From positions 29,648 to 56,354 of IMG/VR virus record IMGVR_UViG_3300000101_000007: a stretch of DNA of 26,707 nt; one strand, 5' to 3'. Position 1 is the first letter of the stretch. Each line of letters starts with the position of its first letter. This stretch comes from a virus. Both the position numbers and the translations under genes were made by a program. Below the pieces are notes generated by a model. That model was not told the origin of the DNA. It did not search any database and worked only from the letters and a program-made list of their open reading frames with translations. Of the stretch, positions 2,814 through 24,859 are shown in pieces.

Positions 2814-3304
2814 TAAAGTTTGAAAAGACTATATCAGACTTCTGGTCTCAAGATCTTAAAGATTTTAAGTTTAGTGTGCTGTCACCATTGACACAAGCAC
2901 AAAGAGAATACTGGACACACCCTAATTACAATAACGAACTAAACAAGTTAGAACAAGCATTTGATAATGACCTTCCAGACTACTGGCCAAGGTTTATGGA
3001 AGAGATGAATATTAAAGAAGGAACAGTTTCCTGGACAAACGTTGCTCCAGGCAATGTTGTACCTGTGCATACTGATAAGTTTTATAAATTAAGAAAAAAG
3101 TATAATGTAACAGAAGATGAATGCATACGTTATCTAATGTTCTTGCAAGATTGGGAACTAGGACAAATGGTAGAGTTTGAAGAAAAAATTCTTACTAGAT
3201 GGAAAAAGGGTGATGTATGGAGTTTTGGAATTAATGATTCACACTGGGCTGCTAATGGCACTCAGGATAACTTTATAACCTGTCAAATTAACACTTTTAA
3301 TTAG
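2810..3304 (+). CDS. 2-oxoglutarate/Fe(II) oxygenase-like protein (cupin fold)
   Basis: A 164-residue protein with a likely iron triad: HTD at residues 87-89 (HxD) and His145 in INDSHWAAN. Between them are RYLMFLQDWELGQ and WKKGDVWSF, like the core strands of aspartyl-hydroxylase-type oxygenases. The Arg usually found 10-11 residues after the distal His to bind 2-oxoglutarate is not obvious, so cosubstrate use is uncertain. It starts in the stop of the DUF6356-like gene (ATGA) and is the last gene of the plus-strand operon. Its stop overlaps head-on with the stop of the fibre gene on the other strand (3301-3304). Hydroxylation of the product made by the upstream enzymes is an inference. Confidence 0.75.
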   Translation: MIKFEKTISDFWSQDLKDFKFSVLSPLTQAQREYWTHPNYNNELNKLEQAFDNDLPDYWPRFMEEMNIKEGTVSWTNVAPGNVVPVHTDKFYKLRKKYNVTEDECIRYLMFLQDWELGQMVEFEEKILTRWKKGDVWSFGINDSHWAANGTQDNFITCQINTFN

Positions 3305-4794
3305 TGTAAGTCTACCCAACTACTACCAGCATACGCTTGTATCTTAGAAGTATCTGTATTATAAATCATTTGACCGTTAACTCCTGTAAGAGCATTACGT
3401 TGTGCTGTTGTATATGATTTAAGTTGAGCTGGTCCACCGAATACTGTTTCTTGTTTTGAGTTGAACGCAACTGCTAGTGCAAGTGTACCTGCTGCATTTG
3501 CTGTTATGATTTCATACTTACCTGGAATTTGGTTAGCTGCAATAGCACCATCTGCTGTAGCATCAAGTACAACTGATAACCCCAATGAAGATTCACTAGC
3601 AGCACCATAAGCAGAGTAAACGTGTCTAAAAATACCATCGCCATTTTGAATAGCCGCTGGACTTGCTTTTGTACCACGAGTTTTAACCATTACTTGTGCG
3701 GCTGCGTCTGCACCTGTGTTGTATGCTTTGAATGTGAATAGATCGTAATCGTCTTCACCGTCGCCTTGTGTTTCAAGTAACAAGCCGCCTGTAGCTAAAT
3801 TTTTATTAAGAATAATATTACCTGTATCAACAGTATCATTATTTACATTACCTTTGATTTGACTTGCAATGGCATCAACAAGTATAGTTGAGTCATCACC
3901 TGACACGCTACCTCTTAGGTCACCTGTAAGTGTTTCTGCTGTAACTGTTTTAGTGATAGAGTTAACAATAGCAGTACTGTCGTCACTGAATAAACTTCCT
4001 TTTACATCACCATTAAATGCTGCTGCTGTAACTGACGTTGCTGTAACTGATGTTGCACTAACTGAGTTGTTTGAAGTATTAATAATTGTGCTAGAGTCAT
4101 CACCAATGATGTTTGCGTTTACGTTTGCTCCCGGTTCTGCAACACCGCCAAGTGTTAATCCACCTACTGTTGAACCTGCTGGAAGTTCAATAGCGCCACC
4201 GTTGTTTGTAATATTTGCACCATTAACTGATACCGCAGTTTTAACATACACATTATTAAACATTGTGCCAGGTGCGCCAACGTTATGTGTGTCTGCTGTT
4301 GCAGGTACAATGTGATCTTTAACTGTGCCAGATAAGTTAATTGCACCTTCTACTGCATTTACAAGTATAGTTGAGTCATCGCCAAATACAGAACCATTGT
4401 AGTCTGCTACAATTTTACCTTCAACAGTCAAATTGCCAGTAATTGTGCTGTTTCCAGTTATGTTTAATCCACCACTGCCAGTAATGTTAAATGAGTTTAA
4501 GTCTAAATTCTGTAGCAACTGCGGTTGATTTGCTGTTGCGGAAATTGTGTTGCCCCCGTCGTTATATGTAAAACTAATACCTGTGTTAGGGCCTGCTACA
4601 AGCATATTAGCAACTGCGTCTTGTGCATCTTCTGCATTAAAACCAGTTACTGCTTCTAAATCTTTTAGTAAGGTTGTTCCGTCACCTACGTACAGCTTTG
4701 CTTGGTCTGTAACCCAAACTAACTCACCTGCTTGTGGCGCAGTTGCGAGCGTTTGACGTTCAGCATCGGTTCCTCTTCTTATCTGTAATGGCAT
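3301..4794 (-). CDS. Tail-fibre-like structural protein
   Basis: A 497-residue probable virion fibre. The N-terminus (MPLQIRRGTDAERQTL, then GELVWVTDQAKLYVGDGTT) is the domain common at the head of phage fibres and tropism determinants. The middle carries at least four copies of a unit built around G-[ST]-x-x-x-DDST-x-[IL]-V-[ND]-[AS]-[IV], typical of fibres of T4-like marine phages. The C-terminus has the collar-like motif YTTAQRNALTGVNGQMIYNT ending in SSWVDLH. Composition is rich in Gly, Asn, Thr and Ala, as in beta-helical shafts. The start has an upstream GGAGT ribosome site and a late-type promoter at 4835-4842, so it is probably expressed late and separately from the gene to its right. 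Which receptor it binds cannot be told. Confidence 0.8.
   Translation of the reverse strand: MPLQIRRGTDAERQTLATAPQAGELVWVTDQAKLYVGDGTTLLKDLEAVTGFNAEDAQDAVANMLVAGPNTGISFTYNDGGNTISATANQPQLLQNLDLNSFNITGSGGLNITGNSTITGNLTVEGKIVADYNGSVFGDDSTILVNAVEGAINLSGTVKDHIVPATADTHNVGAPGTMFNNVYVKTAVSVNGANITNNGGAIELPAGSTVGGLTLGGVAEPGANVNANIIGDDSSTIINTSNNSVSATSVTATSVTAAAFNGDVKGSLFSDDSTAIVNSITKTVTAETLTGDLRGSVSGDDSTILVDAIASQIKGNVNNDTVDTGNIILNKNLATGGLLLETQGDGEDDYDLFTFKAYNTGADAAAQVMVKTRGTKASPAAIQNGDGIFRHVYSAYGAASESSLGLSVVLDATADGAIAANQIPGKYEIITANAAGTLALAVAFNSKQETVFGGPAQLKSYTTAQRNALTGVNGQMIYNTDTSKIQAYAGSSWVDLH
3878..4380. repeat. 20-bp direct repeat within the fibre gene
   Basis: The 20-mer acaagtatagttgagtcatc occurs identically at 3878-3897 and 4361-4380. 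It encodes the DDSTILV core of two fibre repeat units. Identity at the DNA level suggests recent duplication, recombination or conversion between units. Confidence 0.85.
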
Positions 4795-8495: not shown

Positions 8496-8571
8496 TGGTG
8501 GAGCCAGAGGGAATCGAACCCACGACCTCCTGAATGCAAATCAGGCGCTCTCCCAACTGAGCTATGGCCCC
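8496..8571 (-). tRNA. tRNA-Ala (anticodon UGC)
   Basis: The minus strand folds as a full cloverleaf: acceptor GGGGCCA pairs with TGGCTCC, the D-arm contains GCTCAGTTGGGAGAGC, the anticodon loop TTTGCAT sits between CCTGA and TCAGG, and the T-arm has GTGGGTTCGATTCC. The 3' CCA is encoded (8496-8498). The first base overlaps the last base of the stop codon of the gene on its right. UGC reads A-ending and, with wobble, most Ala codons, useful to an AT-rich phage. Confidence 0.97.
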
Positions 8572-8948
8572 TATTCATGTTCGCCTCCTGGATCGTTTTT
8601 ATCTAAAGGCACTTTATGGGCGTTACCTTTTTCATCTCTCCAAATGGTATAAGTTCTACTTCTGCCAAATGAATTATAGCCGCTGATAAAATTAAAGGCG
8701 GTCGGCTTTCTTTGAGCTGTTTCAAATGTTGCTACTGTAACTGCAATTGCACCTAATAGAAGTGTATGTAAAACCATACTAAAAACTCCTGCGTACATGC
8801 TGCCTACAATAATACCAAATACAATACACCACATCCATGCTAATACTTGCATGATCATATGTCTTGTACTAAAGTCAGGAATAGCACTTAAAGGATTCTT
8901 TTCATAATCCATTACACTATTCCAGCAATCATAAACCCATTCTCTCAT
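8571..8948 (-). CDS. Small membrane protein between two tRNA genes
   Basis: A 125-residue protein with two hydrophobic segments at about residues 31-52 (MIMQVLAWMWCIVFGIIVG) and 53-75 (VFSMVLHTLLLGAIAVTVAT), then a polar tail with GYNSFGRSRTYTIWRDEKGN ending in GGEHE. I recall similar small GGEHE-ending membrane proteins in T4-like cyanophages, but no function is known. The open frame extends right through the tRNA-Thr gene to 9167; the real start is ATG 8948, with AAAGG seven bases upstream and lying after the tRNA. The stop touches the tRNA-Ala 5' end, so RNA processing must cut next to the coding region. Confidence 0.75.
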   Translation of the reverse strand: MREWVYDCWNSVMDYEKNPLSAIPDFSTRHMIMQVLAWMWCIVFGIIVGSMYAGVFSMVLHTLLLGAIAVTVATFETAQRKPTAFNFISGYNSFGRSRTYTIWRDEKGNAHKVPLDKNDPGGEHE

Positions 8949-8977
8949 TGTATTACCTTTCTCTTCTTCTTCTAATC

Positions 8978-9053
8978 TGGTGCTGGATGTCGGATTCGAA
9001 CTGACCACCTGCTGATTACAAATCAGCTGCTCTACCAAATGAGCTAATCCAGC
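8978..9053 (-). tRNA. tRNA-Thr (anticodon UGU)
   Basis: Minus-strand cloverleaf: acceptor GCTGGAT pairs with ATCCAGC, D-arm TAGCTCATTTGGTAGAGCA, anticodon loop TTTGTAA between GCTGA and TCAGC, T-arm GGTCAGTTCGAATCC. The 3' CCA is encoded (8978-8980). It lies 7 nt after the kdsB-like stop and 29 nt before the next start, apparently co-transcribed with both. Confidence 0.97.
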
Positions 9054-12577: not shown

Positions 12578-12856
12578 ATGAACTTTTTAACATTTGTAAG
12601 CGAGGTTGGTTTTCCAATTGCAGGCGCAATAGCCGCAGGCTTTTTTGTGTTCACTACGCTAAAATTTATTTTGGCTAGTGTTACAGGAAGTGTATGTGGT
12701 CTGCAGAATATGATATCAGCATTAGATAATCGGGTACAAACAATGAATAACGATCTTGTTAAGATTGATGCATTAATGAGCTACGCTCTAAATGTAAAAC
12801 CTAACGTAGATCGTATAGCTGCCAATGAAGGCAAAGAAGACGCAAGAAGAGACTAA
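12578..12856 (+). CDS. Small membrane-anchored protein, related to the one at 13458
   Basis: A 92-residue protein with an N-terminal membrane helix (VGFPIAGAIAAGFFVFTTLKFIL) and a helical, coiled-coil-like domain (NMISALDNRVQTMNNDLVKIDALMSYAL). The arrangement, including the GFPI motif at the helix start and a [LM]-x-N-D-[LM]-[IV] helix after it, is shared with the 106-residue protein at 13458. Holin-like or spanin-like roles are conceivable for such single-helix proteins, but nothing in the sequence proves either. Confidence 0.65.
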   Translation: MNFLTFVSEVGFPIAGAIAAGFFVFTTLKFILASVTGSVCGLQNMISALDNRVQTMNNDLVKIDALMSYALNVKPNVDRIAANEGKEDARRD

Positions 12857-13457: not shown

Positions 13458-13778
13458 ATGACAGCAGAACTAGCAGCAGCGATAAAAGATTTTGGCTTTC
13501 CTATAGTAGCTGCGATGGGTCTTGGATATTTTGTCTACTACGTGTGGAGATGGGTAACAACTGAGATTAAACCTGTGCTAAGTCAAGCCTCAGGTAAATT
13601 AGTTGGGTTGATAGATCGTATTCGCATGTTGGACAACGACATGATTAGACTTAATCAAAAGTTAAACATGGTATTAGAATTCAAAGATCAGTACGAAAAA
13701 GTTACAGGGAAAAAACTTGATCTTGACGTTGATGAAATTGAAGAAGCTGTAAAGTCAGCAGCGAAAAAGAAGAAATAG
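13458..13778 (+). CDS. Small membrane-anchored helical protein, related to the one at 12578
   Basis: A 106-residue protein. Residues 10-34 (DFGFPIVAAMGLGYFVYYVWRWV) form one membrane helix. Then comes a helical region (LVGLIDRIRMLDNDMIRLNQ) and a Lys/Glu-rich tail ending in KKKK. The GFPI helix and the L-D-N-D-M-I-R-L heptad echo the protein at 12578, pointing to an old duplication. Topology is probably N-out with a cytoplasmic coiled coil. Function unknown; lysis or membrane-associated virion assembly are possible. Confidence 0.65.
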   Translation: MTAELAAAIKDFGFPIVAAMGLGYFVYYVWRWVTTEIKPVLSQASGKLVGLIDRIRMLDNDMIRLNQKLNMVLEFKDQYEKVTGKKLDLDVDEIEEAVKSAAKKKK

Positions 13779-14195: not shown

Positions 14196-16256
14196 TTATT
14201 TGGTCGTTGCAATGAAAACTCCGTTCCAGTCCTCAGGTAAGTCTTGTGTCATCATATACTCACAACGTTCAATCCACATATTATAGTAGCCTTCCATTTT
14301 ACCATCAAAGTTGCGTTCTATCTTTCTAGCAATCCATATTGCTTCTTCAAACTTTTGTGCTTGATATGCTCTATGCATATCTTCGTGGTAACGTTTTGTT
14401 GTGCGCCATGCTGGCTTAGGATTATCTAGTACTGTCCAAATGCCAATTCCAACTGTTTTACCTTTAACTGCTAAATCGTCTATTTTTAAATAAAAGAAAT
14501 CATCTTTAGTTTGTTGATATGTAGCATCGCCTATTAGTAAGACACATCCGTACTCTTTACATTTACTTTCAATTCTTGCTGCTGTGCTGACTGAGTCTCC
14601 CAGTACATCATACGAATGTCTTTGTGTGCTACCCATTTCTCCAAGATAGCCAAGTCCTGTATTGATGCCTGCTCCCATGCCAACAGGCGGTCTTCCTTCT
14701 GATGTAATTTTATCATTAAACTTCTCCACTGCTTTTAACATATCTAGTCCACATTGTACAGCCGTCTTAGGATGTTGTGGATCATCTATTGGTGCATTGT
14801 GTACATGCATACTTGCATCGCCAATATACTTAATAACCATACCGTCTGCATCAAGTATTGGTTGCGTAATAGCATCCATGTAGCCATTCATAATTTTGGT
14901 TAGTCCTTTTACATCATCTCCAAAGCTCTCTCCTAGAGGTGTAAATCCACGTAAATCTGAGAAGCAAATACTTACTTCTTTTTTCATACCGTCTTTAATC
15001 AGTGCAGGATTTTCTTGTAGCATACGCACTACTGTAGGTGATGCATAACCTGCAAATTGCTTCTTAATCTTTTGTTTTTCAAAGAATTCTACTACAAAAC
15101 GGTTAAATGTAGCATGGAAACCTACTGCTGTGCCTACTAACAGTATCCAGCTCACATCCCATAGCTGTAAGTGCCCCTTAAACAGCGTGTAAGCGCCGTA
15201 CAAGCACGTTGCGTACATAACAAGTACCAATGCACCCACAACGTAATACGGTGCTAAAACCGCCGCAATTATAAGAATAAGCCCAATTGCGATACTAGCA
15301 GCGTACTCTACAAATGTAGCATAATCAAAACGTACAATAGTATCTCCGTTCATAATAGTTTGTAATGCTGTTGCAGCCATTACGTGACTATACTGCTCTC
15401 CGTTTGGAGTAGCAACGATTGGTGCTAGTCCTTCTGCTGTGATTCCTATTATTACAATCTTGCCTTCCATTCCCCAAAAGAAATCATCTTCTGAAGCACT
15501 GTAAACATCAAAATCTTTGTTCCAACGTAACCAAATTCTACCATTTGGATCTGTTGAAATAGTTTCGTATGCAGGCACACGCATAGCAATGATGCCGCCC
15601 TCACCTGCTTTAACTTGATAACTAGGGTCGCCAACAGCAACACGTATAACTTCCATAGGAATACTTGGGTATACTTCGTCTCCAACACGCATTAGCAATG
15701 GTAAACGTCTTACAACACCATCTATCTCAGGTGCAGTATTGATTACACCAACTCCTGCTGCGTTGTTACCTAGTAACGGTATAGGACCTAACATACCTGG
15801 CCATTCAAATAGCCAAGGCATAGGATCACCTATTTTAGCAACACCTCTTGGTACTGCGTTTTTATTTGTTTGTGTTGTTCCTGTTTGTGCAATAACAACA
15901 CCATTATTAAGCAACATCTGTGCTAGTTCTGTATCGCCGCCCAGTCTATCGTTTTCAGAAAACAATATAGGCATAACAATAACACCAGCACCGTGAGCTC
16001 GTAAATTTTTAATAATATCTGCTAGTACATCACGCTTCCAAGGCCATTGTCCGTACTTTTCTATAGATGCTTCATCTATTTCTAGTATAGCAATGTCGCT
16101 GGATAGTGGTTCTACTGTGTCATAACTTTGAATAAGATCAAATGATTTGAGTCTTAAAGTCTCTTTTACATACGGGTCGTTGAAGCCTAGTATACTAATA
16201 ACTGCTAGAGTTAGAAGGGCTGTTGACCAATGTGTTAAGATCTTTGAAAGTTTCAT
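14196..16256 (-). CDS. CHASE2-domain class III adenylyl cyclase
   Basis: A 686-residue membrane receptor cyclase. Residues 11-24 are a membrane helix. About 40-310 form an extracytoplasmic CHASE2 sensor (IAILEIDEASIEKYGQWPW is its start motif). Three helices follow (about 319-338, 341-358, 368-384), then a class III catalytic domain at about 425-610. Metal ligands are Asp434 (CFSDLRGFTP) and Asp480 (KYIGD). Lys476 and Asp550 are the pair that selects ATP, and Arg561 is in VSTAARIE. The Asn normally four residues before that Arg is Ser557, which may lower activity. A helical, TPR-like tail ends the protein. CHASE2 cyclases often sit beside FecR genes in bacteria, and here a FecR gene is 2.5 kb upstream. 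It should make cAMP in the host inner membrane in response to a periplasmic signal. Confidence 0.9.
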   Translation of the reverse strand: MKLSKILTHWSTALLTLAVISILGFNDPYVKETLRLKSFDLIQSYDTVEPLSSDIAILEIDEASIEKYGQWPWKRDVLADIIKNLRAHGAGVIVMPILFSENDRLGGDTELAQMLLNNGVVIAQTGTTQTNKNAVPRGVAKIGDPMPWLFEWPGMLGPIPLLGNNAAGVGVINTAPEIDGVVRRLPLLMRVGDEVYPSIPMEVIRVAVGDPSYQVKAGEGGIIAMRVPAYETISTDPNGRIWLRWNKDFDVYSASEDDFFWGMEGKIVIIGITAEGLAPIVATPNGEQYSHVMAATALQTIMNGDTIVRFDYATFVEYAASIAIGLILIIAAVLAPYYVVGALVLVMYATCLYGAYTLFKGHLQLWDVSWILLVGTAVGFHATFNRFVVEFFEKQKIKKQFAGYASPTVVRMLQENPALIKDGMKKEVSICFSDLRGFTPLGESFGDDVKGLTKIMNGYMDAITQPILDADGMVIKYIGDASMHVHNAPIDDPQHPKTAVQCGLDMLKAVEKFNDKITSEGRPPVGMGAGINTGLGYLGEMGSTQRHSYDVLGDSVSTAARIESKCKEYGCVLLIGDATYQQTKDDFFYLKIDDLAVKGKTVGIGIWTVLDNPKPAWRTTKRYHEDMHRAYQAQKFEEAIWIARKIERNFDGKMEGYYNMWIERCEYMMTQDLPEDWNGVFIATTK

Positions 16257-16261
16257 ATACC

Positions 16262-16269
16262 TATTTATC
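16262..16269 (-). promoter_or_regulatory. Late-promoter-like motif directly before the cyclase ATG
   Basis: GATAAATA ends five bases before ATG 16256 on the minus strand. The same GATAAATA-N5-ATG arrangement occurs at 23620-23627. If active, the mRNA would start at or next to the ATG. Could also be chance in AT-rich DNA. Confidence 0.35.
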
Positions 16270-16275
16270 TTAGGA

Positions 16276-16494
16276 TCAATGATCGTAAACGTAAGGTCCG
16301 TCTTTCATCTTCATAGGTTTGCAGTATGCAGTTATGCGATGTTCTGGAGGTACCATTGAGCTATAGCTGTAATTTCCGTACTGTCGTGGTATACGTTTAG
16401 CATAGTATTGACACACATCTATACTCCTAAAATACATAGGTGATGGCTGCTGTACGTCAGCTATTAATACTACTAGCATAAAAACATGTATCAA
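16276..16494 (-). CDS. Small secreted two-cysteine protein, TTG start
   Basis: A 72-residue protein whose hydrophobic start (MIHVFMLVVLIADVQQPSP) looks like a signal peptide, followed by FRSIDVCQYYAKRIPRQYG and RITAYCKPMKMKDG. The Cys...Cys-K-P layout matches the proteins at 8292 and 10360. The start is TTG 16494, which overlaps the previous stop (TTGA) and has AGGAG nine bases upstream; ATG 16479 is the alternative, with no ribosome site. It lies between the late operon at 17276 and the cyclase, so an exported partner of the CHASE2 sensor is possible but unsupported. Confidence 0.6.
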   Translation of the reverse strand: MIHVFMLVVLIADVQQPSPMYFRSIDVCQYYAKRIPRQYGNYSYSSMVPPEHRITAYCKPMKMKDGPYVYDH

Positions 16495-16793
16495 CGTATT
16501 AATCTCCTGTCGGTATTACGTCCTGGTCTTCTAATAGCGGGTTTCTTTTCTTCCTGAATAGGAGTGGTGGGCGGTTCTTTAGGTTTCTTTGCTTCTGCTC
16601 TAAGTTTAACTACTTCTCTTTGTTCAAGTTGTGCCTTAAACATGTGTATTACTTCAGGTGCTGATTCTGTTGAGCTTAAGAATATGTTTATTGCGCTCCA
16701 TGAATTACCCATGAATAGCAATTTTCCTGCTTTATAAAGTATACCTTTATTGTTATCATTTACAAAAACATAGTCTTTATAAACATACCTCAA
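16491..16793 (-). CDS. Hypothetical protein with basic, proline-rich tail
   Basis: A 100-residue protein. The first half (MRYVYKDYVFVNDNNKGILY, ... GNSWSAINIFLSS) looks like a small beta domain, then comes a charged helix (FKAQLEQREVVKLRAEAKK) and a disordered tail (PKEPPTTPIQEEKKPAIRRP, then GRNTDRRLIR). It directly follows the stop of the gene at 16794 and overlaps the next start by four bases. No family recognised. Confidence 0.6.
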   Translation of the reverse strand: MRYVYKDYVFVNDNNKGILYKAGKLLFMGNSWSAINIFLSSTESAPEVIHMFKAQLEQREVVKLRAEAKKPKEPPTTPIQEEKKPAIRRPGRNTDRRLIR

Positions 16794-17276
16794 CTATATT
16801 ACACCTTTCGCCTTTGCTGTTAATACTATTATAAAAATTAAAAATCCACCAACAGCTAAACATCCACCAGCTATAGCAATACCTTCTACTAACTTACGTC
16901 TACGTTCTTCTTGATCGTAAATTGCTTTTTGTCGTTTCTTTCTAATCTGACCTTCGGTTTGTAAAAGCTCTTCCCATGCACTTGGTCCTCTAGTAAATGA
17001 GATTATATTTTTTAACTCACTTCGCATATCTTCTGCTTTTTTCTTAGCTATAAAAATTTGCATAGCTTCTTCTTCAACTGAGCCTGCTTGAAACAGTTTT
17101 TTAAATAGAGGCGGGTTGCTATTGTACTCTTCTGCTTTTTTAATATCTGAAACAGCACCCATCCAACGACCTAGATCGCCTGCCATGGATTCTATTTCGC
17201 GACCAGCTGCGAAGCCGGCCTTAATCGTGTTAAATGCGCCGGTCGCCATTGCGACGGCTGAGATGGGATCTATCAA
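16794..17276 (-). CDS. Membrane-tailed phage protein of unknown function
   Basis: A 160-residue protein with an N-terminal amphipathic part (DPISAVAMATGAFNTIKAGF), a helical middle (GDLGRWMGAVSDIKKAEEY, PPLFKKLFQAGSVEEEAMQI, SAWEELLQTEGQIRKKRQ) and a C-terminal membrane helix at about 133-153. I recall closely similar proteins in T4-like cyanophages, always of unknown function. The start is TTG 17276 with AGGAG eight bases upstream, and a late-type promoter is at 17306-17313. A late membrane role is suggested by its promoter and topology. Confidence 0.75.
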   Translation of the reverse strand: MIDPISAVAMATGAFNTIKAGFAAGREIESMAGDLGRWMGAVSDIKKAEEYNSNPPLFKKLFQAGSVEEEAMQIFIAKKKAEDMRSELKNIISFTRGPSAWEELLQTEGQIRKKRQKAIYDQEERRRKLVEGIAIAGGCLAVGGFLIFIIVLTAKAKGVI

Positions 17277-17320: not shown

Positions 17321-18775
17321 TTAGTTTTGGGTTACTGTGGTTGTGCCGCAACCATTAGCAGTATTACAATATTGTTGTATTGAATATACCTGATTTGTTG
17401 AACTATCTTGTGTAAGGTTAAGTGTTGCACTGTGGCCAGTCATGTTAATACTTGCATTATGATTGCCTGTGCCGTCTTGTGTTATAGCAACTGTTTGATC
17501 ACTACCAACAGCAATTTCTGCATAGTGCGAACCTGCACCTTGTTGATATAAGTCTATATCGTTGTCGTCACCTTGTACACTTAGAAATGCTTTCTTATCT
17601 CCGTCATTGAGTTGACTTGTTAAAACATTATTGTTACTACCATCTATGTCAACACCAACATAATGCCCGTTTGTGCCTACTCCGTCATTATGTTTTTGTG
17701 TAACATTAAATGTATTGCCGTTACCAACAATGTCAAACTCTAATCTATTATCGTCAGCACCCGCTGAACCACCTTGATCAATTACAGTAGTATTTGAATG
17801 TCCTACCATATCAAACAATATAACATTGTCGTCACCTCTTTGAGTCATTGTGTTGTTATTGTTGTTTCCTGTAATATCAGCATTTACTATGTTGCTAGTT
17901 GTTGAGCCTACACCTGCTATAAGATTATCTTCACCGTCTTGTGTGATGTTAAGTGTATTGTCGTTACCAACTTGACTGATATAAATTCCACTACCTGTTA
18001 CTGCTCTTGATGTTGCTACCTGTGTAGTCTGTGCGTTGCTTATACTTGAAGTGTATGTTGATGTTGTATACAATCCTTCTTCTACCATTATTGATAACAA
18101 CATATCATCCATGTTACTTGCATATGAGCGAGTTGTAAGAAACTGTCCGTAACCAAATGTTACATAAACTGCACCACCATTTGAACCATAATCCCATTTG
18201 TGCCAAATTGAAATATTATTATTAAGAGATGAGTTGGCAGCAACAGTTGTACCACCAGTCACATTGTACATATATTTGTCTGAACCTGGCAAAGTATTTT
18301 CACTTGCTGTGCTACTTGAAAAGTCGCCTTTTCTTGTTGAATAATAACAATTAGCACATCCGCCGTTGTTAGGCCCTTGTGTAAAACTACCTACACTCAT
18401 CTTACTTTCGATCAGTGCTTCTATACTGCTATTTCTGTTGGTTGCGCCGTTAGATCCTACTATAAGTAATTTGCCGCCAGCTGATACATAATTGTCATAG
18501 TTTGTTTTACAAGTACTACCACAGTTTGACTCACCTGTTATGTCAATCACAAGATCTTTACCTGATATATCAGATGAACTAACTGACCCACTTGTGCTAC
18601 TTGATACAGTATAACCTAAATCTTCAAGTTGGCTTTTTAAATTTGCGTATTGAGAACTTGTTTCAGCATTCCCACTATTTTTATAATATATAAACGCTGT
18701 GTCAGCCCATGCTGGCGTTGTGACTGATATTAAAAAGAGGAATAATAAACTATTTCTGAATGATGTCAATATCAT
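17321..18775 (-). CDS. Large chimeric curlin-repeat protein
   Basis: A 484-residue exported protein. Residues 1-24 are a Sec signal peptide ending in PAWA. Residues 25-250 form a separate domain (AFIYYKNSGN, LKSQLEDLGYTV, DLVIDITGES, GGKLLIVGSNG) with the alternating strand-helix look of a Rossmann/GATase-like fold and four cysteines (CGSTC, CANC). From about 262 to the end are curlin-type repeats: IYISQVGNDNTLNITQDGED, NNTMTQRGDDN, NTFNVTQKHNDG, IDLYQQGAG, VAITQDGTGN, LNLTQDSSTN, TTTVTQN. Curlins are amyloid subunits with N/Q-x5-Q-type strands exported through CsgG. The start overlaps the FecR gene by 26 nt, with AGGAG nine bases before. It may be an amyloid-anchored effector or nucleator; the N-terminal fold is a tentative reading. 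Confidence 0.8.
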   Translation of the reverse strand: MILTSFRNSLLFLFLISVTTPAWADTAFIYYKNSGNAETSSQYANLKSQLEDLGYTVSSSTSGSVSSSDISGKDLVIDITGESNCGSTCKTNYDNYVSAGGKLLIVGSNGATNRNSSIEALIESKMSVGSFTQGPNNGGCANCYYSTRKGDFSSSTASENTLPGSDKYMYNVTGGTTVAANSSLNNNISIWHKWDYGSNGGAVYVTFGYGQFLTTRSYASNMDDMLLSIMVEEGLYTTSTYTSSISNAQTTQVATSRAVTGSGIYISQVGNDNTLNITQDGEDNLIAGVGSTTSNIVNADITGNNNNNTMTQRGDDNVILFDMVGHSNTTVIDQGGSAGADDNRLEFDIVGNGNTFNVTQKHNDGVGTNGHYVGVDIDGSNNNVLTSQLNDGDKKAFLSVQGDDNDIDLYQQGAGSHYAEIAVGSDQTVAITQDGTGNHNASINMTGHSATLNLTQDSSTNQVYSIQQYCNTANGCGTTTVTQN

Positions 18776-19886
18776 TACTACCGTCTCCTAGTTTATAATC
18801 TCTAAATTCAAAATCTGATTGTTGTAAATTAATGTTATATCCATTCTGTTGATCTAGTACTAGTTCTACATTCATACCTGTACCACTATCTCGTCTAAAT
18901 ACCCAATTAGGATTTTGATTATACAGTTCGATGCCTGTAACAGGATCTTTACCATATTTCTGTTTTGCTTTTGATTTAGATAATTGACCACTTAGTAAAG
19001 TTGATAACATCTGATTAAGTTGATCAAGTACGTTAACAAGGAAGTTTTGATCTAAGTAGTTTGCATCTAACTCTGTCTGCCAAACATCTTTTGATTCCTC
19101 ATCAAGTTGGTTTATATCTAATCCGTCGTACTCTAAGAAGTCAAACCCTAAGAAGTCTGCTAAGTCTTTAGCACGGTCTTTTTCTAACTGATACTCAACT
19201 TCTTTAGGCTTTCGAATGATTAACAAGTTATCAATAAGCGATTCGTTAATATCAAGTATAATAGGTTTTAAAGGATCTCTTTCTGGTACGTCTACAACAG
19301 TTGCTTGGAATGCTTTGTTTAATATAACTGATCCGGCATCTGAGCTTACTTCAATTTCTCCTACAACACAGATACGCTTAACACCAACAGCAGAACAACT
19401 TGGTAAAAGAATAATAGTTGAACTACCTGTTTCGTCAACGGTCATAGTAAAGTCAGTACCACGAACTCCGATAGTAGCAGTCGGAGTAGTAATCTTTATA
19501 TCTTGTCTACTGTTCTTTGCTATCTGTCCTGATGCATATCTAATAGTTCCAAAAGATGCTTTGAGGGAAAGTTTACCTTTTGAAGTATTAGGATCATATA
19601 CAAACTCGTCAATAACTAATTTACTATTTTGAGTTACGTCAACTCTAGTTTCATCTACAAACTCTATAGCAGTTTTACCTTGACCTGTACGAACGGTATC
19701 ATAACTTACTATTGAACTTCCTGTTTCTGAATCTAGTTTATCACCTGTTGATCTTTCAATTATAGTGTTACCAACCTGCTGAGTTACTTTTCCGATATCT
19801 GCTTGTGCAGCCATAACGGAATTGTTAATGGTTAGCATAACCATTAGACCTGCTACAAGAGCCAATCTGTCCAGCAATCGGATCAT
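18750..19886 (-). CDS. FecR-domain exported protein with curlin-like C-terminus
   Basis: A 378-residue protein with a signal peptide (residues 1-28, ending AAQA) and a FecR domain at about 45-200: YDTVRTGQGKTAIEFVDETR, SKLVIDEFVYD, LKASFGTIRYASGQIAK and the signature TPTATIGVRGTDFTM. FecR domains act in the periplasm as ligand or signal-sensing modules. The middle (200-330) is charged and helical. The last residues contain YNINLQQSDF and SNDIDIIQK, like curlin strands, so it might join the amyloid. It sits between two curlin genes, with a 5-nt gap on one side and a 26-nt overlap on the other. It has no helix to contact an inner-membrane anti-sigma system. The nearby CHASE2 cyclase is the likely signalling partner. 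Confidence 0.85.
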   Translation of the reverse strand: MIRLLDRLALVAGLMVMLTINNSVMAAQADIGKVTQQVGNTIIERSTGDKLDSETGSSIVSYDTVRTGQGKTAIEFVDETRVDVTQNSKLVIDEFVYDPNTSKGKLSLKASFGTIRYASGQIAKNSRQDIKITTPTATIGVRGTDFTMTVDETGSSTIILLPSCSAVGVKRICVVGEIEVSSDAGSVILNKAFQATVVDVPERDPLKPIILDINESLIDNLLIIRKPKEVEYQLEKDRAKDLADFLGFDFLEYDGLDINQLDEESKDVWQTELDANYLDQNFLVNVLDQLNQMLSTLLSGQLSKSKAKQKYGKDPVTGIELYNQNPNWVFRRDSGTGMNVELVLDQQNGYNINLQQSDFEFRDYKLGDGSNDIDIIQK

Positions 19887-19891
19887 GTAAA

Positions 19892-20656
19892 TTAATCCGT
19901 CTGTGTAATATCTATAGTTGCGTCATTACCTACTGTGGTAAGATTTATAACTTTGTCTTCAACACCTGACTGATTGATGTTCACAATAGAACCACCACCT
20001 TTCATATCAACTACCATACTGTGACCATTAACATCACCGCCACCAGATTGTGTAATTGCAACTGTGTTAGCAACACCGCTTTCAACTGATGAGCTTGATG
20101 ATGTAGTACCGCCAGCGCCAACACCTGATAGTGCTGTTGAGCCATCATTACCCATGTCAAAGTTTAAATCAGCGTTTGCTGCATTAAGAGTAAAAGTTAG
20201 TGTGTCTTGATTACCATTATTATCTAGATCAATTGTACCCACAAAGTTCTGTGCATCTGCTGATCCGCCAATTGTTGCTGTAATATCAAATTGGCTACCA
20301 ACAGCATCTATACTTAATGATACAGTTTCACAGTTTACACCGTTTGTATCACAATCTAAATCAACTGTGTTAGTGTTACCAGTTAAGTTGATGTTACCAG
20401 TATAGGTGTTACCATTAATGGTAGTTTCAACAATGTTGGCGTCTCCTGTTTGAACAATTGAAAACGTCATGTTGTTTCCGGTTAAAGCCACACCAGTTGT
20501 TGATGTACCTATTATGTTATTAGTTCCGTCTTGTGTTATGTCCAAGTCTAAGTCATTACCAGATTGCTGTATGTATATGTCATTAGCAAACACTGGAGAT
20601 ATCAACCCCAAACTTAAAACAAAAAGACTACTTGCTACTATTGTCTTTATCTTCAT
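19892..20656 (-). CDS. Curlin-repeat protein (CsgA/CsgB-like)
   Basis: A 254-residue exported protein with a clear signal peptide (MKIKTIVASSLFVLSLGLIS, then PVFA before NDIY). The mature start, NDIYIQQSGNDLDLDITQDG, is a typical double curlin repeat. More repeat-like strands follow: FSIVQTGDAN, INLTGNTNTVDL, VAITQSGGGD, VNINQSGVED, IDITQTD. The middle (100-185), with only two Cys and many Gly, Ser and Asp, is longer than in CsgA (about 150 residues in E. coli), so it is not a simple orthologue. The gene starts inside csgG (28-nt overlap, GGAGCG before the ATG). It is the expected export substrate of the adjacent CsgG. Confidence 0.85.
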   Translation of the reverse strand: MKIKTIVASSLFVLSLGLISPVFANDIYIQQSGNDLDLDITQDGTNNIIGTSTTGVALTGNNMTFSIVQTGDANIVETTINGNTYTGNINLTGNTNTVDLDCDTNGVNCETVSLSIDAVGSQFDITATIGGSADAQNFVGTIDLDNNGNQDTLTFTLNAANADLNFDMGNDGSTALSGVGAGGTTSSSSSVESGVANTVAITQSGGGDVNGHSMVVDMKGGGSIVNINQSGVEDKVINLTTVGNDATIDITQTD

Positions 20657-21659
20657 CTTCGCTCCCTTGGTCGTCTATTTCGTCAACCAATTTTTTAATT
20701 AATGGATCGTTATGCCAACACATATTATCTGCGTCACAATAGTAACTCTTTACACCTGGATACTGTTTGTTAAACTCTTCCTCTGACATTTTAACTATAG
20801 CATCATGTCTTTCGTGTATTGTCGGACGCGACTCCGGTATCAACATACTCTCTAGTTCTTCCCTCTCGAACTTCCACAGTTTCTCTTTCTCACCTTTCTT
20901 TATCAACTCAACTACGGCTGCTTCAATTGCTGTACGAACTGCATAGTTGGTTGGCTCATTTACTGCTGCGCCTACTTCTATTTCAAGTGCCTTTGTGCCT
21001 ACATCTAGGAAACGAAATACATCGCCTCCGCTACTGTAACTTGCAATTTTCTTTTCAGTTGCTACAGTTAGGAGTACTTCTCCTGTCTGTGTACTAATAA
21101 GTCTCATTGCAACAGTAACTTGATCTGTTCTATAAGAAGTTGAACTGCCAATGCCAAAATATCTAGCACCTACACCTCCACTTTCCATATTAGAATCGTA
21201 GCCTACTACGCCACCTTCTAATATTAGACCTGCAAAGAGAAGTGGTTTTAAAGATGTAGGATCATTTTCGTAAACATCTCTAGTTGATCTTATCAATTGT
21301 CTCTCTTTAACTAGATTGTCTAATCCTACACGTTCAATAACTGTAAACCACGTTCCTCCACCGACTTCTTTTAAGGCATTAATAACCCATACCTCAGCAC
21401 CTTGAGTAACCGCACTACTGAGCTGACTAAAATTGTCATTAGGCTTTCGCTGCCCTGTTTTGTCTAGAAAACTGTAAATTGCAATTGTTATTTTTGGTCC
21501 ATCAATAGCTGGCACGGTCTCCAATACACTTTGGTATGGACTTTCCGCCCTAACGGGTGGGGTCCAATCCTTCTTTGTAAAGGTGGCCGCACATCCTGTC
21601 ATTGCTATAGCCAGGACCACAAATAACAAACTTCTAAATAGTCTTTTCAATTCTGTCAT
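20628..21659 (-). CDS. csgG: CsgG, outer-membrane curli secretion channel lipoprotein
   Basis: A 343-residue protein with strong similarity to CsgG, the nine-subunit pore that exports curlins. The lipobox AMTGC places lipidated Cys23. Family motifs follow: ITIAIYSFLDKTGQRKP, WFTVIERVGLDNLVKERQLI, ILEGGVVGYDSNMESGGVGA then RYFGIG, and TGEVLLTV. The pore constriction of E. coli CsgG uses Tyr, Asn and Phe. Here Asn76 and Phe77 are kept, but the loop is two residues shorter and lacks the Tyr. A tail of about 65 residues beyond the E. coli end includes PGVKSYYCDADNMCW and an acidic end. The ATG shares one base with the csgF stop (TAATG). Confidence 0.95.
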   Translation of the reverse strand: MTELKRLFRSLLFVVLAIAMTGCAATFTKKDWTPPVRAESPYQSVLETVPAIDGPKITIAIYSFLDKTGQRKPNDNFSQLSSAVTQGAEVWVINALKEVGGGTWFTVIERVGLDNLVKERQLIRSTRDVYENDPTSLKPLLFAGLILEGGVVGYDSNMESGGVGARYFGIGSSTSYRTDQVTVAMRLISTQTGEVLLTVATEKKIASYSSGGDVFRFLDVGTKALEIEVGAAVNEPTNYAVRTAIEAAVVELIKKGEKEKLWKFEREELESMLIPESRPTIHERHDAIVKMSEEEFNKQYPGVKSYYCDADNMCWHNDPLIKKLVDEIDDQGSEDEDKDNSSK

Positions 21660-22114
21660 TAAAATCCAAAACCTGTCAAAGGCACAGTAATCGTAGTAAC
21701 AGTTCCGTCTTCTTCGGTAATCGTGATGCTAATAGTATCTGTAGTAATATCTTTTACCCAGTATATTATAGCGCCTTCGATTTCAGCTGTTCCGCTATTG
21801 GCTCCTGTATCATCGAACATACCGTCAACTAATTGCTTTGATAATTGTGCATAGATTCTACTCTCAACGTTGTTAAGAAACTTCGCTAAGTTTGTAGACT
21901 CTGCTTCACGCTTTTCTTTCGCAGCTTTGGCTTCAGCCTTCTCCTCAATATCTTTTTTACGAGTAAACTGTAATTGTTCAATACTCAAGACATGGCTGGA
22001 ATACCCTTTACCACTGAAAGATGGATTTTTAAACTGAAAAACTTCATCACCCGCAACGGCAGGTGCTGTAGCTAATAAGCCCAGAATGATAGCTATAGAA
22101 ATTACATTTTTCAT
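21659..22114 (-). CDS. csgF: CsgF, curli assembly factor
   Basis: A 151-residue exported protein. The signal peptide ends at AVA (residue 21). The mature N-terminus GDEVFQFKNPSFSGKG matches that of CsgF, the segment that plugs into the CsgG pore and forms its second constriction. A charged helix (about 52-74, KKDIEEKAEAKAAKEKREAE) replaces the region of E. coli CsgF that is rich in Asn and Ser, and the C-terminus (ITITEEDGTVTTITVPLTG) is the usual beta end. First gene of the curli operon, with AAGGAG before the ATG and a late-type motif at 22146-22153. In the family it holds the nucleator at the cell surface. Confidence 0.92.
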   Translation of the reverse strand: MKNVISIAIILGLLATAPAVAGDEVFQFKNPSFSGKGYSSHVLSIEQLQFTRKKDIEEKAEAKAAKEKREAESTNLAKFLNNVESRIYAQLSKQLVDGMFDDTGANSGTAEIEGAIIYWVKDITTDTISITITEEDGTVTTITVPLTGFGF

Positions 22115-22145: not shown

Positions 22146-22153
22146 TATTTATT
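22146..22153 (-). promoter_or_regulatory. T4-type late promoter motif before csgF
   Basis: AATAAATA on the minus strand gives a leader of about 32 bases with AAGGAG before the csgF ATG at 22114. A second match, GATAAATA, is at 22183-22190. Either would make the curli operon a late transcript. Confidence 0.5.
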
Positions 22154-22295: not shown

Positions 22296-22538
22296 ATGAG
22301 TAGGGAATTATCTGAACAGGATGCAATGTGGGAGTTATTAGAAACAAACTTTCCTAGTAACAAAGACCACAATTTAGTAATTAACTTACCTAACGAAATA
22401 GCAGAACTTGAAAAAACTAAACTTGTTGAAGTTTTAGATTTTCACGATTGGAATAAATCAAGAGCAGCCAAAGATTTAGGCATAGGCCGAACAAATCTAA
22501 TTGCTAAAATAAAAAAATATGAATTGGTTCAGAATTAA
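22296..22538 (+). CDS. Fis-type helix-turn-helix DNA-binding protein
   Basis: An 80-residue protein whose C-terminal half (LVEVLDFHDWNKSRAAKDLG, then IGRTNLIAKIKKYEL) is a Fis/NtrC-type HTH_8: the W-N-[KR]-S-x-A-A-x-x-L-G-I-x-R-x-x-L pattern is exact. The N-terminus is a short acidic region without other domains. It is the only plus-strand gene between 14157 and the right end, divergent from csgF. Fis-type proteins bind as dimers to AT-rich palindromes, and an 18-bp palindrome lies between the two genes. Control of the curli operon is the obvious hypothesis. The stop overlaps the convergent gene by four bases. Confidence 0.85.
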   Translation: MSRELSEQDAMWELLETNFPSNKDHNLVINLPNEIAELEKTKLVEVLDFHDWNKSRAAKDLGIGRTNLIAKIKKYELVQN

Positions 22539-23619: not shown

Positions 23620-23627
23620 TATTTATC
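23620..23627 (-). promoter_or_regulatory. Late-promoter-like motif directly before the gene at 23614
   Basis: GATAAATA, then five bases, then ATG 23614: the same spacing as before the cyclase gene. It overlaps the end of the bilin reductase gene. No clear ribosome site is present, fitting a leaderless late mRNA, though chance is possible. Confidence 0.35.
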
Positions 23628-24321
23628 CAAGTTTGGGAAATAACATATCTGTGCAGAACTTGTCTACATCAGCTTCGTTAAGTCCTAGGCTTTTCATAGT
23701 GCGTGGAGTGTGTGGGTTTTGTTGCTGATTATGACAATAGTAGTCTTGTGAAGCTTGTACTAATGCAGTATCTCCTTCACCTTTAGTAAGGCCTACTTCA
23801 GCAAAGTAAGTGTGTAAATTATCTATTGCAAGATCAATAATAGCAACAGCTTCTTCTTCAGTGCTTACATTACCGGCAGCAATCATACTTGGACTAAAAA
23901 TATTTTGAGCCCATTCAGGTAGTTCACGTTTCTTACTTGGTATAAAGTCTGCTACTGCTTCTGCATATCCTTGTATCATAGGATGATTAGGATCACTACT
24001 AGCACTTACATCGTGGAATGCACCAGTCATCTTTCTTTTACCTGCAATAACATCAAAGCCGTATATAGGTGCTGGGTTATCTAATGTTGGAAAAATACAT
24101 ACATGCATCATCCACAGACCTTTACTATCTCTAGCATCAACTACATCAATATGCGCTCTACGAATTTCATCGTTATGCCACACACGGTTGATCCAACTAC
24201 CGTCTGGTTTATTAAAATAGTCAAGTCCTGGTTCTGAAAATTCTTTTGCTTTATCGTCAAAGATATCTATAATTTCATTCTGACAGTCAATTAGTCTATC
24301 CCAAATAACACTGTTACTCAC
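23623..24321 (-). CDS. pcyX: Phage ferredoxin-dependent bilin reductase, PcyX type
   Basis: A 232-residue member of the ferredoxin-dependent bilin reductases, closest to the PcyA/PcyX branch. MHVCIFPTLDNPAPIYGFDV (residues 72-91) is the family core with His73 and Asp90, equivalent to the His88 and Asp105 that bind the bilin in PcyA. RRAHIDV has Asp59 where PcyA has catalytic Glu76. QASQDYYCHNQQQNP and VDKFCTDMLFPKL are the C-terminal signatures. PcyX, known from uncultured oceanic phages, reduces biliverdin to phycoerythrobilin with four electrons from ferredoxin. The start lies eight bases inside the heme oxygenase gene, which makes its substrate. The purpose in a non-photosynthetic host is unknown. 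Confidence 0.88.
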   Translation of the reverse strand: MSNSVIWDRLIDCQNEIIDIFDDKAKEFSEPGLDYFNKPDGSWINRVWHNDEIRRAHIDVVDARDSKGLWMMHVCIFPTLDNPAPIYGFDVIAGKRKMTGAFHDVSASSDPNHPMIQGYAEAVADFIPSKKRELPEWAQNIFSPSMIAAGNVSTEEEAVAIIDLAIDNLHTYFAEVGLTKGEGDTALVQASQDYYCHNQQQNPHTPRTMKSLGLNEADVDKFCTDMLFPKLG

Positions 24322-24859
24322 TATGATGCTCCATCAACTCTTTAAATAATTCAGTAGCAAAATCAAAGCAAACTTTTGCTTCGTCTGCCATGTTGTCATT
24401 ACATTTTGCTCTAATCTTATCTTTATAATCGTTGATGTCAATGTCTCCAAACTTATACATATCTCCGTTACCCGGTACACGTTTTGCAATCATTTGTCCA
24501 CCACTTAGATCTCCCATGTGTCTAACATACACGTGAGCCATTAATCTGTTAGGATCGTCCATGATATCTTTTAAGTACATTACATACTTGTGAGTAGTTT
24601 TTAGTGTAGGTGGTCTATCTTCTCTTTTCCATAGTTCTAAGAAGTCTGACATAATGCTCTTTGAACGTAATAGTTCAGGTACATCATCAAGTAGACCGTG
24701 CTGTTGAGCCATTAATTCTAAGAGCTCATAAGCGGGAAATTGGTTCCAAAGATATAAGGCGTAAAACTCTGGATCAATCTTGCCAGAGAACATAACCTTT
24801 ACGAACTGTTGTCGTTCTGCGTTAGTATGGTTTTCTTTGGTTAATTCTTTTAAACTCAT
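24314..24859 (-). CDS. hemO: Heme oxygenase
   Basis: A 181-residue HO-1-type heme oxygenase that opens heme to biliverdin, CO and Fe(II). The proximal His11 is in KENHTNAERQQF near the N-terminus, and the distal helix is YVRHMGDLSGGQ (residues 111-122) with the flexible GDLSGG. It is shorter than most HO-1 proteins (about 200-240), with a trimmed C-terminus, as in other phage versions. AGGAGT lies nine to ten bases before the ATG. It is coupled to pcyX by an 8-nt overlap, giving a complete heme-to-bilin route. It could also free iron from host heme. Confidence 0.92.
   Translation of the reverse strand: MSLKELTKENHTNAERQQFVKVMFSGKIDPEFYALYLWNQFPAYELLELMAQQHGLLDDVPELLRSKSIMSDFLELWKREDRPPTLKTTHKYVMYLKDIMDDPNRLMAHVYVRHMGDLSGGQMIAKRVPGNGDMYKFGDIDINDYKDKIRAKCNDNMADEAKVCFDFATELFKELMEHHSE

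Follow-up and report, generated by a model that had tools for sequence, protein, structure and literature searches.

A curli export block with a FecR-domain protein and a putative CHASE2 receptor cyclase on a virus contig

Genes for CsgF and CsgG were reported in pelagimyophages by Zaragoza-Solas 2020 (PMC7029224), and no agreed function of the curli genes of abundant marine phages has emerged since that 2020 report. Buchholz 2022 discussed the pore of phage Melnitz as a lysis device and saw no clumping during Melnitz infection (PMC9004378). Wittmers 2022 described curli genes together with FecR and adenylate cyclase genes in podo- and myovirus pelagiphages, read FecR as an iron regulator and annotated a gene before csgF as a 'histidine kinase' (PMC9599517). 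A role in aggregation or exclusion was proposed in both PMC7029224 and PMC9599517. In bacteria, clusters of FecR and CHASE2-adenylate cyclase genes are known from Campylobacterota (PMC9239204), and a LysM-FecR/CHASE2-histidine kinase operon from Burkholderia (PMC5192318).

Here we analysed 26,707 nucleotides (the window), bases 29,648-56,354 of a 107,186-base IMG/VR virus contig (IMGVR_UViG_3300000101_000007) from a marine phage. The window carries a curli-FecR-cyclase block that recurs in hundreds of other marine viruses. A preliminary description, made from the window alone, had pointed to such a module; the block itself is already published (PMC9599517) and is not new as a module.

Gene content and promoters of the block

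The block lies on the minus strand in the order csgF-csgG-curlin-FecR-curlin-(two variable small genes)-cyclase, with the cyclase as its final member and the genes of CsgF, CsgG, FecR and the two curlin-repeat proteins immediately 5′ of it. The CsgF pore accessory protein (21659..22114, E=7.6e-17) is followed by the CsgG outer-membrane export pore lipoprotein (20628..21659, E=1.7e-50), curlin-repeat protein 1 (19892..20656; 254 aa with a signal peptide, Pfam 2.2e-5), the FecR-domain protein (18750..19886; 378 aa, FecR Pfam E=1.6e-11) and curlin-repeat protein 2 (17321..18775; 484 aa with a signal peptide and repeats from ~265), which matched Curlin_rpt at 1.1e-10 and a CsgA model at 6e-5. With the CsgG pore, CsgF and curlin-repeat subunits all in the window, the block belongs to the curli or type VIII secretion systems. 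The gate CsgE, an accessory and not essential curli component (PMC7029224), was found in none of 8 phage records. Curlin-repeat protein 2 has an N-terminal part with no assigned fold (residues ~25-240), and in many relatives it is much shorter. The variable cargo within the block comprises a 160-aa protein with a C-terminal TM helix (16794..17276, phrog_32327) and a 100-aa protein (16491..16793) that is missing from some relatives; the cyclase, of 686 aa, occupies 14196..16256. Divergent from csgF is the gene of an 80-aa Fis-type HTH protein (22296-22538, plus strand), a candidate regulator with homologues in the same place in many relatives.

Two small membrane proteins of 92 aa (A; 12578..12856) and 106 aa (B; 13458..13778) are encoded as a tandem pair on the plus strand, downstream of the cyclase. 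Such a pair of ~100-aa single-TM proteins lies beside nearly every well-flanked block, either just ahead of csgF or past the cyclase, in most cases in convergent orientation; among the fetched loci with 5 kb or more to either side, 24/24 have the block. The pair belongs to PHROG 18771, with function unassigned, and is possibly a holin-like or energising pair; it matched no Pfam family. One Melnitz member gave a weak holin-family match (phrog_4898, 1.1e-4, residues 1-23 only), a faint hint that the pair may be holin-like. The histidine kinase partner placed before csgF in PMC9599517 was rejected, as HATPase_c was found in 0 of 8 records, both cultured phages included, and the ~100-aa pair would be what was called a histidine kinase.

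Late-promoter-like boxes were found upstream of the cyclase and of csgF. The first base of GATAAATA (16262..16269, minus strand) lies 13 bases before the cyclase ATG, with a predicted +1 at or near this ATG, and that of AATAAATA (22146..22153, minus strand) lies 39 bases before the csgF start; a second GATAAATA upstream of csgF begins at -76. The general motif NATAAATA, which we take to be the T4-type late box of T4-like phages, occurred in the 120 bp before the cyclase gene in 23 of 63 distinct upstreams (background 1.8%) and before csgF in 21 of 59 (background 1.6%), and showed no enrichment before csgG or fecR in the upstreams of relatives. The late box before the cyclase is at -12/-13. Throughout these phages a spacing of 12-13 bases to an ATG was seen for 69/377 motifs, part of them contributed by the cyclase itself, versus 19/1,444 control words, which suggests that late transcripts of these phages may be leaderless. 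Scans for sigma-70 promoters and terminators gave results at about chance level.

The record holds other genes of interest. In the window a bilin reductase gene (Fe_bilin_red, 23623-24321) overlaps a heme oxygenase gene (24314-24859), both on the minus strand, and elsewhere in the record (L190:9245-11885, L191:3-746) we found porphobilinogen deaminase, uroporphyrinogen decarboxylase, ALA dehydratase and a PF00155 aminotransferase, perhaps an ALA synthase. This tetrapyrrole set seems more extensive than the AlaS-HemO-PcyX cassette of PMC11480375. Two tail-type proteins (3301-4794 and L189:17313-18884, both minus strand) have an N-terminus of the Mtd_N (major tropism determinant) type, tRNA-Ala(TGC) and tRNA-Thr(TGT) lie at 8496-9053 (minus strand), and near the record start (L187, L188) are many tandem proteins with radical-SAM-like CxxxCxxC motifs, one of which matched a radical SAM PHROG. 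The record is not a close relative of Melnitz or HTVC008M, as only ThyX matched among 17 proteins of these phages.

Linkage of curli, FecR and cyclase genes

The preliminary description had named a lack of co-occurrence of cyclase, FecR and csgG in relatives as one refutation of its proposal, and the co-occurrence was found in searches from the cyclase and from CsgG. An IMG/VR scan detected relatives on 396 contigs, of which the best 80 were fetched. Genes for csgF, csgG, curlin and FecR are present at each of the 47 cyclase loci whose upstream flank reaches 7.5 kb or more, two of the 47 being those of the cultured phages. A second scan, started from CsgG, matched at least 593 contigs, and FecR and cyclase were both there in 20/20 newly fetched CsgG loci with at least 9 kb downstream. 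In both surveys the loci are the best-scoring relatives, some of them nearly identical to one another, and the counts do not represent independent events. Identity nevertheless falls to ~50%, and in three loci (L004, L005 and L018) the csgF..curlin genes have the opposite orientation with respect to the cyclase while remaining next to it. The linkage is near absolute among well-flanked loci. It is not universal, since FecR and cyclase are sometimes missing, above all in podoviruses (PMC9599517). One further locus, on a contig of a 'Pirellulales' MAG (L084), has the phage block with a cyclase 68% identical, and is probably a phage contig in a bacterial bin.

That FecR and CHASE2-cyclase genes are often neighbours in bacteria, as the preliminary description had also stated, agrees with our counts and with the published clusters (PMC9239204). 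A FecR gene lies within 10 kb of a CHASE2 cyclase gene in 19/30 bacterial loci by a local HMM search, and in about 22/30 by Pfam coordinates, from which contig identity was sometimes inferred, versus a chance expectation of roughly 1.7%, given 86 FecR genes across about 114 Mb. The same pair is present in the window and in 47/47 phage loci. No csgG, csgF or curlin gene was found within 10 kb in 79 bacterial CHASE2 loci, and the phage module therefore looks like two bacterial modules joined. A bacterial ancestor with curli, FecR and CHASE2 together was sought among these 79 nearest loci, and none was found.

The cyclase active site and the FecR tail

The reading of the 686-aa ORF as a CHASE2 protein with a class III cyclase domain was confirmed by Pfam, which assigned CHASE2 to residues 18-328 (E=1.5e-43, 149.6 bits with a cut-off of 26.3) and Guanylate_cyc to residues 425-601 (E=2.9e-16, 60 bits with a cut-off of 21.9). 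In the predicted topology a TM helix (9-25) precedes a periplasmic CHASE2 domain (~29-303), three TM/signalling helices (313-401), the cyclase domain (424-610) and C-terminal helices (615-668); CHASE2 thus lies between an N-terminal TM helix and C-terminal TM helices in the model, as in CHASE2 sensors. The structure model has the same fold as CyaB/CyaC (Foldseek, TM 0.85-0.87). Foldseek searches with the cyclase and FecR models returned no CHASE2 match and no curlin match.

Class III cyclases use an asparagine in the transition state, and at this canonical position the window cyclase has Ser557. The metal-binding D434 and D480, the substrate-pair K476 and the transition-state R561 are invariant in 93 phage cyclases, down to ~50% identity, in line with the metal Asp and Arg561 noted from the window alone. 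Residue 550 is D in 73, T in 4 and S in 2 of the 79 full-length phage cyclases, and residue 557 is Ser in 73 and N in 6. Over all 93, D550 with S557 occurs in 84, the window included, and S/T550 with N557 in the remaining 9 (HTVC008M, L063/L167, L066-L069 and L185/L186), while the bacterial relatives have Asn557 in 78/78 and S/T, rarely G/R, at 550. The preliminary description had argued for ATP selection from the Lys476/Asp550 pair. Both residues are present, but D550 never occurs without the non-canonical S557, which leaves the argument incomplete.

In a tree of 88 sequences, obtained by a quick search and with long bacterial branches and an unsure deep root, a branch with full support separates the phage cyclases from the rest. 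The D550/S557 sequences form one fully supported clade, whose 62 tree members all retain both residues, and a single change suffices for residue 557. Judged from these sequences, S/T550 to D and N557 to S appear as a single concerted switch on one branch, with no intermediates, in the main phage clade. Because the transition-state Asn is replaced by Ser557, we file the window protein as a class III homology-domain cyclase with a non-canonical active site and leave its identity as an adenylyl cyclase putative. Cyclase activity may be low or altered in the main clade; we found no paper that settles the effect of Ser at the transition-state Asn. The concerted change and its retention in the whole clade would also fit an enzyme whose catalysis was abolished or changed by D550/S557, leaving a structural sensor or a producer of another cyclic nucleotide, but the invariance of the metal Asp residues, Lys476 and Arg561 in 93 sequences is hard to explain without catalysis, and we consider this unlikely.

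The phage FecR protein consists of a signal peptide or N-terminal helix, a FecR domain (63-157) and a curlin-like C-terminal tail (~319-378). In phages the last ~60 residues follow the consensus GYxINxxQxDFExxDYxxGxGxxNxIDIxQ, with an invariant Q356. At least two strands of the form [ILVMF]x[ILVMF]xQ are found within the last 34 aa of 32/34 phage FecR proteins, versus 0.15 such strands per 34 aa outside the tail, and two strands occur in 0/27 bacterial FecR-family neighbours. By hhalign the tail matched the curlin-1 family with E=0.005 and a probability of only 7%, curlin-2 with 0.011, and CsgG, CsgF and the cyclase with 0.28 or worse. AlphaFold2 predicted six strands at 319-377 (pLDDT ~80). 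The similarity is short, and neither Pfam Curlin_rpt nor Foldseek reports a curlin match for the tail. The tail is a good lead, and not a proof, that FecR may touch the fibre, and to this extent it favours the earlier suggestion that curli is the sensed object.

The FecR model matched anti-sigma periplasmic domains by Foldseek, at E~1e-3 only. The anti-sigma N-terminal domain PF16220 is missing from phage FecR, and no ECF sigma gene adjoins the block: HTVC008M and Melnitz have Sigma70_r2 matches away from the block, and the record of the window has none. An anti-sigma regulator of the FecI/FecR/FecA type was rejected on both grounds, and from its sequence the phage FecR and cyclase set is to be read as a bacterial FecR/CHASE2 pair and not as an iron regulator.

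Possible function and comparison with known systems

These data are best explained by a transferable module, borne by the phage, that combines curli export with a FecR/CHASE2 sensor. As to how it works, we tentatively favour a link, late in infection, from exported fibres through FecR to CHASE2 that would gate cyclic-nucleotide synthesis. Gene content and order, linkage, catalytic residues, the curlin-like FecR tail and the late-type promoter motifs were observed directly; from them we infer export, contacts of FecR with the fibre and with CHASE2, catalysis, its product and its output. CsgG and CsgF would form an outer-membrane pore late in infection that exports both curlin-repeat proteins. 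Periplasmic FecR would bind or nucleate the fibre subunits via its curlin-like tail, with a CsgB-like anchoring role, and would present its own state to the inner-membrane CHASE2 domain, which in turn would gate the cytoplasmic class III cyclase. The cyclic nucleotide made, most likely cAMP, would act on a host receptor. A phage-encoded receptor was rejected, as no cyclic-nucleotide-binding protein (PF00027) was found in 14 phage records, several of which are fragments, and the output is therefore probably in the host. Weighing against this model are Ser557 in the main clade, the shortness and low probability of the curlin match of the FecR tail, the shorter cyclase C-terminus in HTVC008M and its relatives, and the Melnitz infections without clumping (PMC9004378).

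A bolder version, which we hold as rather speculative, is an amyloid-gated second-messenger system of phage origin, where FecR is both fibre nucleator and sensor and the cyclase reads the export status. Phage FecR would have acquired its curlin-like tail, D550/S557 would have changed in one concerted step, and the phage would thereby change host physiology late in infection.

The gated-pore/pinholin idea of the Melnitz authors makes the curli pore a lysis or permeability device, in which the moment of envelope breakdown is set by CsgGF and the small pair, and the cyclase does no more than report or adjust it. The tandem single-TM pair beside nearly every well-flanked block, the short holin-family match of its Melnitz member and the late promoters agree with it (PMC9004378). 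However, that match spans 23 residues only, and two conserved signal-peptide curlin-repeat proteins would be needless for a pure pore; we regard such a device as improbable. We give even less credence to the view that the fibres capture siblings or exclude superinfecting phages and that the cyclase came along passively with a bacterial island. The fibre genes are conserved, and aggregation or exclusion has been proposed (PMC7029224, PMC9599517), but passengers would disappear, and none of the well-flanked blocks examined lacks the cyclase, which also persists across rearrangements. The published proposal that FecR controls the curli genes in an iron(citrate)-dependent way, with a histidine kinase encoded upstream (PMC9599517), has the FecR Pfam domain and the annotation of its authors in its favour and is very hard to credit, as phage FecR has no anti-sigma part, no ECF sigma stands by the block, and the flanking genes encode ~100-aa proteins in records free of HATPase_c.

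For the favoured FecR-to-CHASE2 link, the gene pair and the curlin-like tail turn the question of curli in phages into a testable one: does fibre export switch the cyclase, what is the product, and which host receptor responds? A phage membrane receptor cyclase that reports the envelope state would, if true, be an unusual means of host steering by a lytic phage.

The T8SS module of Wittmers shares with the window CsgF, CsgG, one or two curlin-repeat proteins, FecR and the adenylate cyclase. It was described as having an iron regulator in FecR and a histidine kinase in the flanking gene, and the term CHASE2 has 0 occurrences in PMC9599517, where the FecR tail, the active-site switch and the late promoters were not found either. 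Nor did we find in PMC7029224, PMC9004378 and PMC9599517 the CHASE2 type, the FecR tail, the D550/S557 switch, the small membrane pair or the T4-type late promoters, and the sensor type, the fibre-like FecR tail and the altered active site seem to be novel. The cultured Pelagibacter phage HTVC008M (NC_020484) and Methylophilales phage Melnitz (MZ577097) have the six-gene order of the window, with cyclases, annotated as such in both, that are 48% and 70% identical to that of the window, respectively. The HTVC008M cyclase has S550/N557 and is without the conserved C-terminus, and its relatives are also shorter there. In both phages the small membrane pair is upstream of csgF, whereas in the window it is convergent and downstream of the cyclase. 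With bacterial curli systems (CsgA/B/C/D/E/F/G) the phage block has in common the CsgG and CsgF families and curlin repeats, and differs from them by the lack of CsgE and the addition of FecR and the cyclase. With the bacterial FecR/CHASE2 clusters it shares the gene of a FecR-domain envelope protein beside that of a CHASE2 sensor, whereas the bacterial clusters have no curli genes within 10 kb, a FecR without the curlin-like tail, and CHASE2 cyclases with mostly S/T550 and N557 that are at most 33-34% identical.
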